Source: an uncultured Fluviicola sp. (GTDB taxonomy: Bacteria > Bacteroidota > Bacteroidia > Flavobacteriales_D > Crocinitomicaceae). From it: a DNA stretch of 64,000 nucleotides. Positions within the stretch are counted from its first letter, which is position 1. Every line of letters starts with the position of its first letter. The notes beneath the pieces were generated by a model that ran no database searches, was not told the DNA's origin, and saw nothing but the letters and a program-made list of their open reading frames with translations. Below are positions 722 through 10,696 of the stretch, in pieces. A program made the translations under genes and the position numbers. The stretch covers positions 1 to 64,000 of the forward strand of contig CAJVYC010000008.1 in the NCBI GenBank assembly GCA_913009205.1. Reading direction: 5' to 3'.

Positions 722-1840
722 GTGGAATTATCTGATCATAAAAATTCTAAGTTTCCAACTGGTTATGCTGAAATTATTCGTCGTGTTGGCGATATAGAGC
801 CTGTTAAGTATGGCTCAACGCGGAACTATGTAACAGGCCATGTTACCTTTTTATCTCCTTATATTTCAAGAGGTATCATTTCCACGAAATATATAATGAA
901 TGAGGTTTTAAATAGAGGCTATAATCCTGATCAAATAGAAAAATTTATTCAAGAATTAGCTTGGCGGGATTATTGGCAGCAAATCTGGATTTCAAAAGGT
1001 GATGCGATCAATCAAGATTTAAAAAACAAGCAAAGTCCTACTGAAAACGCGGCTATACCTGAAGCCATAGTGAATGCTAAAACTGGTGTTGTAGCAGTTG
1101 ATCAAGCAATTATTGAGTTCTATGATACTGGCTATTTACACAACCACTTAAGAATGTACATCGCCTCAATTGCTTGTAATATGGGGCGTAGTCATTGGAA
1201 AATTCCGGCGAAGTGGATGTATTATCACCTATTAGATGCAGATTGGGCAAGCAATGCTTTAAGCTGGCAGTGGGTTTCTGGAGCAAATTCCAACAAAAAA
1301 TACGTTGCCAATCAAGATAACATCAACAAATACTGTTTTACAAATCAAAAAGGAACTTTTTTGGATATTCCCTATGAAGGGTTTAGTGATTTTGAAATAC
1401 CTGATGTCCTTAAAGAAGTAAAGACTTTAGATTTGAAAACTACCCTACCCAAACAGGAACCTATAAACATTGACAAGACACTTCCAACATGTCTCTATAA
1501 TTTCTATAATCTAGACCCCATTTGGAAAAAAGATGTTTTAGCAAACAGAATTCTTTTACTCGAGCCCTCTCAATTTAAGGAATACCCTGTGTCTCAAAAA
1601 TCTATTGATTTTGTTCTAGAAATTTGCGAACGAAATATTGATAATATTCAAATCTATGTGGGAGAGTTCAATGATTTAATTTCTGATTATGAACTTACAA
1701 ATATCTATTACAAAGAGCATCCGTTGAGTATTCATTATCAGGGTGAAGAAGAGCCTAGAGATTGGATGTTTGATGTGAAAGGTTATTACCCTTCTTTCTT
1801 TGCTTTTTGGAAAAAATGTAAAAAACAGTTGACGTATTGA
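722..1840 (+). CDS. Photolyase/cryptochrome-like FAD-binding protein, apparently with permuted domain order
   Basis: Photolyase FAD-domain motifs [67 protein letters not shown] near the N-terminus; Rossmann-like [13 protein letters not shown]...FVLEI...IYVGEF after it; GTG start. Confidence 0.8.
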
Positions 1841-3321
1841 GTAATCAAGTCATAAATATCGTTTGGTTAAAACGTGATATTCGTTCTCAAGATCACGAAC
1901 CTCTGCTCAGGGCAGAGCAAGCCGGAATTCCATATAAAATTATCTATTTATTCGAACCTACGCTCATTCAATATCCGGACACAAACCTAAGGCACCTGCA
2001 GTTTGTTTACCATTCCATATTGTCGTTAAATAAGACTTTTGCAACGCATAAGAAATCCGTCGATGTCTTTTACGGGGAAGCAATTGATGTTATGGAGCAT
2101 CTCAAACTTCATTTTGATATCAAAGAAATTTTCAGTTATCAAGAAAGTGGAACACAGATTACTTGGGAGCGTGATAAAATGATAACTGCTTTTTGTAAAA
2201 AGCATACCATTCTGTGGAGTGAATCGCAACGGGATGGTATTATAAGAGGTATTAAAACTAGAACTGATTGGAACAAGCGATGGCATGAGGTTATGCACCG
2301 TCCAATTATTCAAAATGAATATTCTATTTCAGAAGTTGAAGCTTTTGAACATCCTTTTTCATTGCCAGAAAAGTTAAAGTTAGATCTAAATGATTACCCA
2401 AAATTATTTCAGCCTGCGGGAGAACAAAATGCTTGGCGGTATTTGAAATCGTTTGGAGCCAAAAGAGGTTTTAATTATCAAAGACACATATCAAAACCTT
2501 CTGAAAGTAGAGTTTCTTGCAGCCGATCATCTCCTTATTTAGCATGGGGAAACCTCAGTGTTAAACAAATATTTCATTTTATTGGGACACATCCGAATGG
2601 TAAAAAAAACGACAACGCATTTTCCGCCATGCTAACAAGATTGCATTGGCATTGCCATTTTATTCAAAAATTTGAAGTAGAATGCAGATATGAAACAGAT
2701 TGCATCAATAATGGATATGAATTATTAGAGCATTCAAAAAATGACGTTTTTATCAAGGCGTGGAAATCGGGTACTACAGGAATTCCTTTGATAGATGCAT
2801 GTATGCGAGCTGTTGAACAAACTGGGTGGATTAACTTTAGAATGAGGGCAATGGTTGTTTCATTTTTAACACTAAATCTAGATCAAGACTGGCGCGAAGG
2901 CACCTATCATTTGGCAAGACAATTTTTGGATTATGAGCCCGGAATTCATTACCCGCAATTTCAAATGCAAGCCGGCACCACCGGGATTAATACCGTGAGG
3001 TTATATAATCCTGTGAAAAACTCTAAAGAACACGACCCGGAAGGCATTTTTATTAAAAAATGGGTGCCCGAACTAGCTAATGTTCCTATCGTTCATGTTC
3101 ATGAACCTTGGAAAATGACAGCAATGGAGCAAACTTTTTGCGGTGTTATAATTGGCCAGGATTATCCGCTTCCTCTGGTTGATTTAGAAGAAAGTGCAAG
3201 GAAGGCTAAAACCAAAATTTGGGAACACAAAAATCATCCAGCTGTTCAAAAAGAAAAGAATCGTTTGTTAAATACACATGTAAACAGAAGACATAATGAT
3301 TTACAAGAAAAAAACAGGTAG
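1837..3321 (+). CDS. Cryptochrome/deoxyribodipyrimidine photolyase family protein
   Basis: [23 protein letters not shown]-terminus; [59 protein letters not shown] start overlaps the upstream TGA. Confidence 0.9.
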
Positions 3322-3358
3322 CAGTTAAATAGTGCAATCAACGCTTTAGTAGAAAGAA

Positions 3359-4846
3359 ATGAAAACAGTCAATATATTATTTCCCCATCAATTATTTCAA
3401 GAGTCTCCGCTTTTTGAGGAAGATGCTCCCTTTTACATTGTAGAAGAGTATTTGTTTTTTAAGCAATATCCTTTTCACAAGCAGAAAATAGCTTTTCATA
3501 GAGCAACAATGAAGCGGTATGCAGATTTTCTTAAAAAAGAGAAACACTTTAAGGTAAACTACATTGATTCCATCAAAGATAATTCGGACGTAAGATTACT
3601 GATTTCAGAATTGAAAACTCAAGGTGTAACTCAAATCAATTATATAGACCCAACTGACAATTGGTTGCAGAAAAGAATAATAGCAGCCTGCAATGAAAAC
3701 GAGATAAATTTAAAGCAATTTCATTCGCCTCTCTTTTTAAACACCAAGGAAGAACTTAACGATTTCTTTCGAGAGGATAAAAAGAAATACTATCAGACTA
3801 CATTTTATAAAGAGCAACGTAAAAAACAAAATATTCTCATTGAAAAAGATGGCAAACCCAATGGCGGTAAATGGACATTTGATGAAGAGAACAGAAAAAA
3901 GTATCCTGCAAAAAAAACACCGCCTGCGATTCAATTTCCTCAGAATGATGACTATTTTGAAGAGGCTACGGTTTATGTAGAAACTCACTTTTCAGATAAT
4001 TTGGGAACGTTGACAAAGCAGTCTTTATATCCAACGAATTTTGAATCCTCGAAATCCTGGCTTCAACAATTTTTTGATCAACGCTTTATGGAGTTTGGTG
4101 CTTATGAAGATGCCATTGTTGCAGAAAACTCGATATTAAATCATAGCGTAATATCACCGATGCTGAACGTTGGGCTGATTACACCTAAAGAAGTCATTGC
4201 TAATTGTTTGATTTATGCAAAAGAAAACAATATTCCAATTAACTCCACGGAAGGTTTTGTAAGGCAAATTATTGGATGGCGGGAGTTTATAAGGGGAGTC
4301 TATGAGGTAAAAGGAAGCGAAGAGCGCACAACTAATTTTTGGAACTTCAACAGGAAAATACCCGCTTCTTTTTATGATGGCACTACTGGTATCGCCCCCA
4401 TTGACCAAACGATTAAAAAAGTTTTACAAACAGGCTATTGTCATCATATTGAACGACTCATGATTCTAGGTAATTTCATGTTACTCTGTGAATTTGATCC
4501 AGACGAGGTTTATCGCTGGTTTATGGAGCTTTTCATCGATGCTTATGATTGGGTAATGGTTACAAACATATATGGAATGAGTCAATTCGCAGATGGCGGC
4601 ACAATGGCTTCAAAACCGTATATAAGTGGAAGTAACTACATCAAGAAAATGAGTAATTACAAGAAAGGTGAATGGCAAAATATTTGGGATGGACTGTTCT
4701 GGCGCTTTATGCACACGCATCGTGAATTCTTTTTGTCAAATCCTCGTTTAGGCATGCTCGTTCGAATGTTTGACAAAATGCCCGAAGAAACCCAGCAAAA
4801 ACATTTAGAGATTGGAAGACGGTACTTATTGTCAATTAATAATTAG
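3359..4846 (+). CDS. Cryptochrome/photolyase family protein, bacterial (6-4) photolyase / FeS-BCP-like
   Basis: NILFPHQLF...VEEYLFFKQYPFHKQKIAFHRATMKRYADFLK; GYCHHIERLMILGNFMLL; GMSQFADGGTMASKPYISGSNYIKKMSNYKKGEW. Confidence 0.88.
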   Translation: MKTVNILFPHQLFQESPLFEEDAPFYIVEEYLFFKQYPFHKQKIAFHRATMKRYADFLKKEKHFKVNYIDSIKDNSDVRLLISELKTQGVTQINYIDPTDNWLQKRIIAACNENEINLKQFHSPLFLNTKEELNDFFREDKKKYYQTTFYKEQRKKQNILIEKDGKPNGGKWTFDEENRKKYPAKKTPPAIQFPQNDDYFEEATVYVETHFSDNLGTLTKQSLYPTNFESSKSWLQQFFDQRFMEFGAYEDAIVAENSILNHSVISPMLNVGLITPKEVIANCLIYAKENNIPINSTEGFVRQIIGWREFIRGVYEVKGSEERTTNFWNFNRKIPASFYDGTTGIAPIDQTIKKVLQTGYCHHIERLMILGNFMLLCEFDPDEVYRWFMELFIDAYDWVMVTNIYGMSQFADGGTMASKPYISGSNYIKKMSNYKKGEWQNIWDGLFWRFMHTHREFFLSNPRLGMLVRMFDKMPEETQQKHLEIGRRYLLSINN

Positions 4847-4859
4847 TAAAAAAAACAAA

Positions 4860-5285
4860 ATGCTTTTCAATACAAGTTATAAAAATGAAGATTATGTAAA
4901 CGAATGCAATCGAACGCTTGGGAAAGCATATTCGTTTCTAGAAAAACTAAAAATCGGTGGCGTAGGCTCTCGTAGGTTAATTATAGAGGAACTAAGCCCC
5001 TCACTAAAACCTGAAAACATGCAAAAAACAGATGTTCATTACGCAAGTATCGAATTAAGACCGAAGGGCATTATTATTCATTTTAGCAACAGGTTAGATC
5101 GTTATTCTTGGATAGTGCCGTACTACCTTTTGGCTATTTTTAGCACACAAACGTATAGCATTCATTCCAATGGTCAATTTATCAAACTTAGGAAAGACAA
5201 AAACTATAAAGAAAATAAGAAGTTTATTAATAAAATGACGGGTTTTAAAAGTGCTTTCTTAAATCTTAATTACAAAATTTCTTAG
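4860..5285 (+). CDS. Conserved-looking hypothetical protein in the photolyase cluster
   Basis: ATG at 4860 inside the 4812 ORF; 14 nt after the photolyase stop, same strand. Confidence 0.6.
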   Translation: MLFNTSYKNEDYVNECNRTLGKAYSFLEKLKIGGVGSRRLIIEELSPSLKPENMQKTDVHYASIELRPKGIIIHFSNRLDRYSWIVPYYLLAIFSTQTYSIHSNGQFIKLRKDKNYKENKKFINKMTGFKSAFLNLNYKIS

Positions 5286-7572: not shown

Positions 7573-8232
7573 TCACTCAATCGGCTCAACGAGCAGTCGT
7601 TGGCAAACATCATTGCTGAGCACAACGGGAGACATATTGTTATAAGCTACTTTCATGCTTTTGTCAAACGGTTCGGAGCGAACAATTTCTACGGTCGTTC
7701 CTAATTTAATTTGTTGTCTATTGAGGTAATGCAAAAACTCCTGTGAGCTGTCCTTCAAAGCGCAAATCCTATAATTGTCGCCAGCAACCGCATCAGACAT
7801 TGGAATGTATTCCCGTTCGACAACATTTCCTTCTTTGTCTGGAATTGGCGAGCCGTGAGGATCCACAGAAGGATGACCAAGAAGCTCGTCCATTCTATCG
7901 AAGAAATTGTCAATTTTTATATGCTCAATTTCCTCTGCGATATCATGCACTTCCTCCCAACCAAAACCCATAAATTTCTCAAGGAACATTTCGGTTAATC
8001 GGTGCTTTCTAATAATTAAGGCCGCTTGCTTTCTCCCTTTCGGAGTGATTTTTAAAGGTTTGTATTTGGCGTAAATCACCCACTTTTCTTCTTGAAGACG
8101 CTTTACCATACTGTTAACCGTTGGAATGCTCACGCCCATTTCCTTGCTCAATTCGGACAAAGAAATATCGTGATCCTTCTGGTCGAGGAAGTAGATTGCC
8201 TTCAAATAATTTTCCTTAATGTGGGTCGCCAT
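7573..8232 (-). CDS. DtxR/MntR-family metal-dependent transcriptional regulator
   Basis: MATHIKENYLKAIYFLDQKDHDISLSELSKEMGVSIPTVNSMVKRLQEEKWVIYAKYKPLKITPKGRKQA; start reassigned from 8316 to 8232. Confidence 0.88.
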   Translation of the reverse strand: MATHIKENYLKAIYFLDQKDHDISLSELSKEMGVSIPTVNSMVKRLQEEKWVIYAKYKPLKITPKGRKQAALIIRKHRLTEMFLEKFMGFGWEEVHDIAEEIEHIKIDNFFDRMDELLGHPSVDPHGSPIPDKEGNVVEREYIPMSDAVAGDNYRICALKDSSQEFLHYLNRQQIKLGTTVEIVRSEPFDKSMKVAYNNMSPVVLSNDVCQRLLVEPIE

Positions 8233-8335
8233 TATTTCTTTGATTGAATACGAATATACACAAAATGTAGTGACATCGAATTCCCAAATCCTTGGCCTTT
8301 GGACATCAAAAAGCATTATATCTCAAATTATAATT

Positions 8336-8363
8336 GTTAGACCCATCTAACTTATTATCTTTG
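8336..8363 (+). promoter_or_regulatory. Promoter with candidate metal-repressor operator upstream of the TonB receptor
   Basis: Inverted repeat GTTAGA-CCCA-TCTAAC (8336-8351) between TTG (8334-8336) and TATCTTTG (8356-8363). Confidence 0.55.
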
Positions 8364-8392
8364 TCCACTAAATCAATCAATGTCATTGAAAT

Positions 8393-10696
8393 ATGAAGGA
8401 ACTTCTTTTTGCCGTATTCATTCTTTCTTCCAGTCTAATAGTCGCTCAATCAGGTGTTATTGCAGGACATGTGAGCAGCCAGAACGCTGACCAAGAATTT
8501 GTAAAAATCAAATTGAGCAATGGGTATGGTGCTGTTAGCGATAGTGTTGGAAACTATGCGATCACAAAATTACCTTTCGGAGAATTCATATTGACCGTTT
8601 ATTCTTCTGAATTTCTAGCTGTAGAAAAAACGATTGTCCTAGATTCATTAAATCCTTTTCTATTCATCAACTTCGAGTTGGAACCGATCTCTCTATTCAT
8701 TGATCAAGTTGTTGTAACTGGAACGAGAACAAACAAACGACAAACAGATTCACCCGTAATCGTTGACATCATAGACACGAAAACATTGGAAGCCGTTCAG
8801 GCCTGTAACCTATCGGAAGGCTTAAAGTTTCAGCCCGGCTTACGCGTTGAAACAGATTGCCAAACATGCAACTACACGCAACTTCGAATGAACGGATTGG
8901 CAGGTGGGTATTCTCAGATACTCATAAATGGACGGCCTGTTTTTAGCCCGCTAACTGGATTGTATGGCCTGGAGCAGATTCCTGCAAATATGATTGACAG
9001 AATTGAAGTTGTTCGAGGTGGAGGATCGGCGTTGTATGGATCATCTGCAATCGGCGGTACAGTTAACGTGATCACTAAAATTCCAAAGGAGAGCGCCTTT
9101 AGTATCTCGAACAATTATCAGAACATCAACGGATTGGCTTCAGATAATATCATCAGCGGAAATGCGAATGTACTAACACACAAACGCAATGCAGGAGCGT
9201 CTTTCTTCGTCAACAACCGAAACCGAGAAGCATACGATCACAACCGAGATAATTTCTCTGAATTGCCCGCATTAAAAACTACTTCATTCGGAACCAATTT
9301 GTTTGTGCGCCCCAACGATCAACAAAAATTAGAAATTACCTTAAGTACGATAAACGAATACCGCTACGGAGGCGAAATGGTTAAAAAAGCGGCACATTTG
9401 GCGCAACAATCAGAAGAAAGAACGCACAACGTTATGGTGGGTGGAATTGATTATCAATACAATTTCAAAAATGAGAATTCATCCATTATCATTTATAGTG
9501 CGGGGCAAAGAACAACGCGTTTACATTACACTGGTATTTATCCCGACGACAGCTTGGAAATTATCGGTCATCTTACCGATCCCCCTTATGGAAACTCCTT
9601 GGTAACAACGATTCAAGGAGGAACGCAATTCAACCACCGTTTTGAAAAATTCATCAAAGGATCGAATGTTTTTACAGTCGGCGGTGAGTATTTAGAGGAC
9701 ATGGTTAAGGATGATATTGTAGCTTATAATTACAAAATCAATCAGTTAACCGCCAATCTTGGAATGTTCTTACAAAGCGACTGGGAGATCTCAAAATCTA
9801 TCAAATTGTTGCTCGGCGCAAGAGCGGACAAACACAACATGCTGGACAATTTAGTCGTAAGTCCACGGGCTTCGTTCATGTACAAACTAAAAGAATCAAC
9901 TCAGTTCAGAGCAACTTGGGGAACAGGGTTTAGAGCACCACAAGCATTCGATGCCGACCTTCACATTGCATTCGCAGGAGGAGGAGTTTCCAGAATCACC
10001 TTGGCCGATGACCTTGTCGAAGAACGATCACAAAGCTTCGGTGCTTCGGTTAACTACGATAAAAAGACAATGAAATACATCGCTGGATTCACGGTTGAGG
10101 GATTCTATACCTATTTGAAAAATGCATTTTACCAACATCCTTTGGGCGAAGATGCTTTTGGTGAATTGTATGAAAAGCGAAATGGTGCTGGGGCAACGGT
10201 AACAGGAGTATCTCTTCAGTTAAGAGCTAATTTCAACAAGAAAGTAGAGTTCGACGGCGGGATCACTTTCCAAAGTAGTTTATTCGATGCACCTATCGAA
10301 TATTCAGATGTTTTACCCGCAACAAATGCCTTTTTAAGAACACCTAATGTATATGGATACGGAACCTTGTTCTATACACCAAACAAGAAGTTTAGCGCTT
10401 CAATGAATACCGTTTATACGGGACCAATGAAAGTGTTGCACCTCGCTGGAGCACCCGAACAATTGGTGGATGAAATCATCACATCAAAATCATTTATTGA
10501 TTTGAGTTTAAAAGTAGGCTACACCTTTTTATTTAAAAAATTAGAATCTGGACTTGAACTCTTTGGGGGTATAAAGAACATCTTTAACTCCTATCAAGAG
10601 TCCTTCGATATTGGGAAAAACAGAGATAGTAATTTTGTTTACGGACCGTCTCTGCCTAGAACATTTTATATTGGTATGAAGGTGTTTTCGCTTTAA
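8393..10696 (+). CDS. TonB-dependent outer-membrane receptor (metal-uptake type)
   Basis: N-terminal carboxypeptidase-regulatory-like domain, plug GRPVFSPLTGLYGLEQIPANMIDRIEVVRGGGSALYGSSAIGGTVNVITK, beta-barrel; divergent from DtxR-like gene. Confidence 0.9.
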   Translation: MKELLFAVFILSSSLIVAQSGVIAGHVSSQNADQEFVKIKLSNGYGAVSDSVGNYAITKLPFGEFILTVYSSEFLAVEKTIVLDSLNPFLFINFELEPISLFIDQVVVTGTRTNKRQTDSPVIVDIIDTKTLEAVQACNLSEGLKFQPGLRVETDCQTCNYTQLRMNGLAGGYSQILINGRPVFSPLTGLYGLEQIPANMIDRIEVVRGGGSALYGSSAIGGTVNVITKIPKESAFSISNNYQNINGLASDNIISGNANVLTHKRNAGASFFVNNRNREAYDHNRDNFSELPALKTTSFGTNLFVRPNDQQKLEITLSTINEYRYGGEMVKKAAHLAQQSEERTHNVMVGGIDYQYNFKNENSSIIIYSAGQRTTRLHYTGIYPDDSLEIIGHLTDPPYGNSLVTTIQGGTQFNHRFEKFIKGSNVFTVGGEYLEDMVKDDIVAYNYKINQLTANLGMFLQSDWEISKSIKLLLGARADKHNMLDNLVVSPRASFMYKLKESTQFRATWGTGFRAPQAFDADLHIAFAGGGVSRITLADDLVEERSQSFGASVNYDKKTMKYIAGFTVEGFYTYLKNAFYQHPLGEDAFGELYEKRNGAGATVTGVSLQLRANFNKKVEFDGGITFQSSLFDAPIEYSDVLPATNAFLRTPNVYGYGTLFYTPNKKFSASMNTVYTGPMKVLHLAGAPEQLVDEIITSKSFIDLSLKVGYTFLFKKLESGLELFGGIKNIFNSYQESFDIGKNRDSNFVYGPSLPRTFYIGMKVFSL

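Follow-up and report, generated by a model that had tools for sequence, protein, structure and literature searches.

A Bacteroidota protein of the prokaryotic (6-4) photolyase type without [4Fe-4S] ligand cysteines belongs to a cluster-free clade

The window (the whole 64,000-nucleotide stretch of DNA analyzed here) carries a gene for a photolyase-like protein that resembles the FeS-BCPs (Fe-S bacterial cryptochromes and photolyases), its best-studied relatives, in sequence and has none of the cysteines that would ligate a [4Fe-4S] cluster. The locus raises the question of whether this protein is an exceptional FeS-BCP or something else, and of how it could work without the cluster. A structural role has been proposed for the cluster because PhrB becomes insoluble on loss of the cluster cysteines; any treatment that might remove the cluster gave poorly expressed or insoluble protein (PMC4619345). 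On the basis of distance and potential, cluster and flavin are considered to exchange electrons directly to a negligible extent, and the function of the cluster has been termed elusive (PMC12082625). Homologues without the cysteines were noted in 2015 (7% of 464; PMC4619345) and mentioned again in 2025 (PMC12082625). In 2022, 20 of 110 sequences, including PromaPL, were grouped as subgroup M; subgroups Chl, HC, Ac, and M share a broken PhrB electron chain and a Met at the Glu403 position, near FAD N5 (PMC9178010).

The gene is an intact open reading frame with an ATG start.

3359..4846, + strand: cluster-free prokaryotic (6-4)-photolyase-type protein, 495 aa, assigned from its domains, PDB matches, clade, and AF2 model

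Pfam recognized a DPRP domain at residues 6-221 (PF04244, E 3e-54) and a photolyase FAD domain (PF03441, E 8e-7), and all eight matches in a phmmer search against the PDB were FeS-BCP photolyases or cryptochromes (E 1e-71 to 1e-78). Together with the strings quoted in the preliminary description, which are all present (QFADGGTMASKPYISG, residues 409-424; YIKKMSNYKKGEWQNIWDGLFWRFM, residues 427-451; GTTGIAPIDQTIKKVLQTG, residues 341-359), these matches bear out the photolyase family and the retained signature that it had reported. The protein has the PF04244 N-terminal domain, FAD domain, and PhrB fold of the wider prokaryotic (6-4) photolyases and also their characteristic residues, H363, Y421, Y427, D175, and D251 (AfPhrB His366, Tyr424, Tyr430, Asp179, and Asp254). 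The four conserved [4Fe-4S] cysteines that define the FeS-BCPs are absent (0 of 4). Both traits of subgroup M were found, namely the lack of ligand cysteines and a broken PhrB electron chain with Met at the Glu403 position (F388, F392, and M400). Judged from its sequence, the protein is outside the FeS-BCPs by definition and is a further member of the already published cluster-free class.

Alignment to AfPhrB (4DJA) confirmed the absence of all four ligands: C350 is replaced by P347, C438 and C441 fall in gaps, and C454 is replaced by N441. Y434 and L446 flank the loop that had been described as shortened; it comprises 11 residues versus 21 in AfPhrB and is thus 10 residues shorter. The four cysteines that the protein does contain (C111, C283, C361, and C377) all lie outside the ligand columns.

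To place the protein, homologues were gathered from 60 relatives, a sample of 398 genomes from its phylum, 80 named loci (almost all from Bacteroidota), plasmids, a second phylum reached via a Pseudobdellovibrionaceae metagenome-assembled genome (MAG), and PDB chains. The scan for named loci listed at least 598 stretches, at least 589 of which encode relatives. Two rows, L222 and L284, were left out as wrong-frame or fragmentary, and L174 is truncated. Among the 275 aligned homologues, 120 have all four ligand cysteines and 155 have none; no mosaic or intermediate cysteine state occurred in these 275. Since 155 of 275 homologues are in the same state and intermediates are lacking, the missing cysteines reflect neither chance nor sequencing error. 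In a tree built with the ligand cysteine columns omitted, a single branch with SH-aLRT support of 100 separates the FeS and cluster-free sets (275 homologues; also in a 195-row tree), and the protein lies deep within the cluster-free clade. The reading of the protein as an FeS-BCP lacking its cysteines was therefore correct as to the ligands and has to be revised in that the protein is no exception. Its nearest named relatives are Flavobacteriales, and the cluster-free set includes the genera Dyadobacter, Pedobacter, Winogradskyella, and Polaribacter. The state of the former cluster region differs consistently between the two sets:

4397..4399, + strand: P347, at the position of AfPhrB ligand C350 (Pro in 147/155 cluster-free, Cys in 120/120 FeS homologues)
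4661..4693, + strand: residues 435-445, the 11-residue loop replacing the Cys loop (AfPhrB C438, C441, C454); 11 aa in 153/155 cluster-free, 21 aa in 118/120 FeS homologues
4673..4675, + strand: W439, a clade-specific Trp of the short loop (154/155 cluster-free; mostly Lys, Asp, or Asn in FeS homologues)
4685..4687, + strand: W443, a short-loop aromatic (Trp in 137/155 cluster-free; the Phe of CPF in the FeS type)

Met at the Glu403 position (M400; 155 of 155) and Ser at 425 (149 of 155) are further hallmarks of the cluster-free set. Second-phylum members have most of these hallmarks, with some variability at the C350 position. The second-phylum cluster-free type (the Pseudobdellovibrionaceae MAG L043, L259-L279, and L285) mostly has variants of its own, with KPYICGSNY...DGLYW. 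One second-phylum copy (L043/L277) is nested among Bacteroidota sequences, by contamination or transfer. A phage origin was considered and dropped, since the matches to phages were no more than weak ones in two records of Acinetobacter phages.

Residues known or predicted to act in repair and electron transfer were then located in the protein.

3881..3883, + strand: D175, Mg2+-site Asp (AfPhrB D179), invariant in 275/275; role predicted from Caulobacter D178 (PMC12082625)
4109..4111, + strand: D251, Mg2+-site Asp (AfPhrB D254), invariant in 275/275; Caulobacter D253 (PMC12082625)
4373..4375, + strand: Y339, at the position of the partner AfPhrB W342 (Tyr in 114/155, Trp in 40/155 cluster-free)
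4442..4447, + strand: H362-H363, active-site His pair (AfPhrB H365, H366); H366 equivalent invariant in 275/275
4517..4519, + strand: W387, electron-transfer Trp (AfPhrB W390); W390 equivalent in 126/128 cluster-free
4619..4621, + strand: Y421, lesion-binding Tyr (AfPhrB Y424), invariant in 275/275; role from PMC4619345

PhrB repair requires H366 and Y424 (PMC4619345), and two Asp residues form a predicted Mg2+ site in the Caulobacter enzyme (D178 and D253; PMC12082625). The equivalents of AfPhrB D179, D254, H366, R369, L370, M410, Y424, and Y430 are invariant in all 275 homologues. The PhrB electron chain is altered in the protein (W342 to Y, Y391 to F, and Y395 to F). A dN/dS of ~0.07-0.10 against relatives indicates that the gene is under purifying selection. 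Since the genome encodes lumazine synthase, DMRL is a possible antenna; 8-HDF is unlikely because no match in the genome reached the cut-off for the FO-synthase CofH.

The AF2 model has a mean pLDDT of 91.1. Confidence is 92-95 over residues 431-450, the site of the former cluster loop, which leads into a helix at 439-453, and is lowest at residues 401-420. In a Foldseek search with this model, the FeS-BCP structures all ranked first (TMq 0.89-0.92; 0.91 to the PhrB structures), and other photolyases scored far lower (0.51-0.60).

The gene is preceded by two others of the photolyase family.

722..1840, + strand: short photolyase-like protein, 372 aa, in which only the FAD domain is recognized (PF03441, E 3e-21); tblastn match near the gene in 42/81 relatives, remote photolyase matches included
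1837..3321, + strand: photolyase/cryptochrome-type gene (PF00875 and PF03441) overlapping the preceding ORF by 4 nt; tblastn match near the gene in 31/81 relatives

Positions 722-4846 hold a photolyase-family triplet of a short FAD-domain-only protein, a full-length photolyase type, and the cluster-free PhrB type. In the first of these, the FAD domain is N-terminal and the C-terminal ~170 aa have no Pfam assignment; the domain order resembles that of the reversed-domain/Phr7-type proteins of picocyanobacteria, a resemblance only. Directly downstream of the photolyase, positions 4812-5285 hold a small conserved ORF with no match in Pfam or NCBIfam. In 15 of 81 relatives, tblastn matched it close to the photolyase at 34-73% identity, and the FeS-type islands L298, L291, and L300 contain homologues of it as well. 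Just beyond the island, at 7573-10696, a DtxR/MntR-like regulator ORF on the minus strand faces away from a TonB-receptor-like ORF, both judged by eye from their translations.

The distribution of the two types was examined in the 398-genome sample of the phylum, in which 134 genomes were positive for PF04244. Each has one match, except for one genome with 13% contamination, which has two. Within these 134 genomes, 93 FeS and 38 cluster-free types were read, and no genome of the sample had both. Both types do occur within a single family code, as in f17 (18 FeS and 4 cluster-free) and f35 (29 FeS and 7 cluster-free). The FeS locus L298 shares ~ten collinear genes with the cluster-free loci L078 and L111 at 58-79% identity; the photolyases inside this block are 33-34% identical. 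For the flanking photolyase-type gene, the tree pairs FeS locus L298 with cluster-free locus L055 (97/92) inside a cluster-free set. Changes of label between FeS and cluster-free number three on that tree, four on the tree of the other neighbor, and one on that of the photolyase itself. The simplest reading of these data is that one type was replaced by the other within a conserved photolyase island. Such exchange in place supports, and does not prove, interchangeable function; we found no report of it in a search limited to open-access text.

Taken together, these results make it very probable, as far as sequence comparison and modeling go, that the protein, a member of the known cluster-free class, works as a (6-4) photolyase of the prokaryotic type and that packed aromatic residues stand in for a cluster whose role is mainly structural. 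FAD would be photoreduced via W387 and probably Y339, and excited FADH- would donate an electron to the (6-4) photoproduct, which Y421 and the Mg2+-site residues D175 and D251 would hold in place, with H363 as the putative proton donor. The protein is thus predicted to repair (6-4) photoproducts and would be expected to contain no cluster when purified. The structural job of the [4Fe-4S] cluster, which PhrB requires in order to fold, may here be done by the 10-residue-shorter loop with its Trp residues, W439 and W443 packing the roof subdomain together with P347, and no metal would be needed.

Four other explanations were weighed against a cluster-free (6-4) photolyase. The best of them, still improbable, is that the protein is a light sensor rather than a repair enzyme, in the manner of the cryptochrome CryB of Rhodobacter. 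CryB is a close structural homologue with regulatory effects (as cited in PMC9178010), and the altered photoreduction chain fits a sensor; however, all of the PhrB repair residues checked are invariant, and the gene is located in an island of photolyase-type genes. A CPD photolyase with the prokaryotic (6-4) photolyase fold is somewhat less probable again. Picocyanobacterial Phr2 without the cluster cysteines has been described, and PMC9426592 suggests a CPD photolyase role for the Cys-less form, proposed for most picocyanobacterial Phr2 because the cluster is absent. Against such a role for the present protein, the equivalents of H366, Y424, L370, and M410 are invariant, three other FAD_binding_7 proteins encoded in the genome could repair CPDs, and it is with FeS-type (6-4) photolyases that the cluster-free type exchanges at the same locus. 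Binding of an Fe-S cluster through other ligands is very improbable: four cysteines are left, but none of them is in the cluster loop or a ligand column, and the C361 column is variable within the clade. A decaying or mis-assembled FeS-BCP gene, for which nothing speaks beyond the missing ligands, is ruled out by the intact ORF, a dN/dS of ~0.1, and 154 further cluster-free homologues.

We also considered whether the cluster-free clade lost the cluster or never had it. Membership in a subfamily in which the cluster was never present was the outcome that the preliminary description had named as speaking against it. The present result comes close to this, as subgroup M is separate from the FeS-BCPs in PMC9178010; "never" hinges on the root. 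When the tree was rooted on other-class photolyases, taken from the window and from relatives, the FeS homologues nested as a single clade (100/100), leaving the cluster-free homologues paraphyletic. A monophyletic cluster-free set is equally likely (log-likelihood difference 0.09, AU p 0.488), and a very long branch, of 3.7 changes per column, leads to the outgroup. That the cluster-free state is ancestral, with the [4Fe-4S] cluster gained once on the branch to all FeS-BCPs, is a tentative and on balance unlikely reading; if true, a single gain would reverse the usual view of loss. Marine iron limitation is unlikely as the sole explanation of the cluster-free state, because Dyadobacter, Pedobacter, Winogradskyella, Polaribacter, and a second phylum are in the cluster-free set.

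The expectation that such a protein would be relevant to what the Fe-S cluster does was right. The retained catalytic residues, together with the exchange in place, argue that the cluster is dispensable for repair. Further, matched natural pairs of FeS and cluster-free photolyases offer a way to test what the cluster contributes to stability, DNA affinity, or redox sensing. In the open-access literature, we found no biochemistry on any Bacteroidota member.

Among known systems, the closest is subgroup M with PromaPL of Prochlorococcus marinus (PMC9178010; PMC9426592), a Cys-less protein regarded as a (6-4) photolyase in PMC9178010. The present protein shares with it the DPRP and FAD domains and the absence of the four ligand cysteines, and with subgroup M the Met near FAD N5 (M400, 155 of 155), the interrupted PhrB electron chain, and the spread over several phyla. 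It differs from PromaPL in coming from Bacteroidota; the two would be expected to branch together. The FeS-BCPs PhrB (4DJA), CryB (3ZXS), and those of Vibrio (7YKN), Caulobacter (9HNK), and Synechococcus elongatus (8IJY) have the same fold (TM ~0.9) and domain order, as well as the active-site His, lesion Tyr, and Mg2+-site Asp residues. In contrast with these proteins, with which it shares ~27-33% identity, the present protein has none of the four cluster ligands and a loop shorter by 10 residues, and it belongs to a separate clade.
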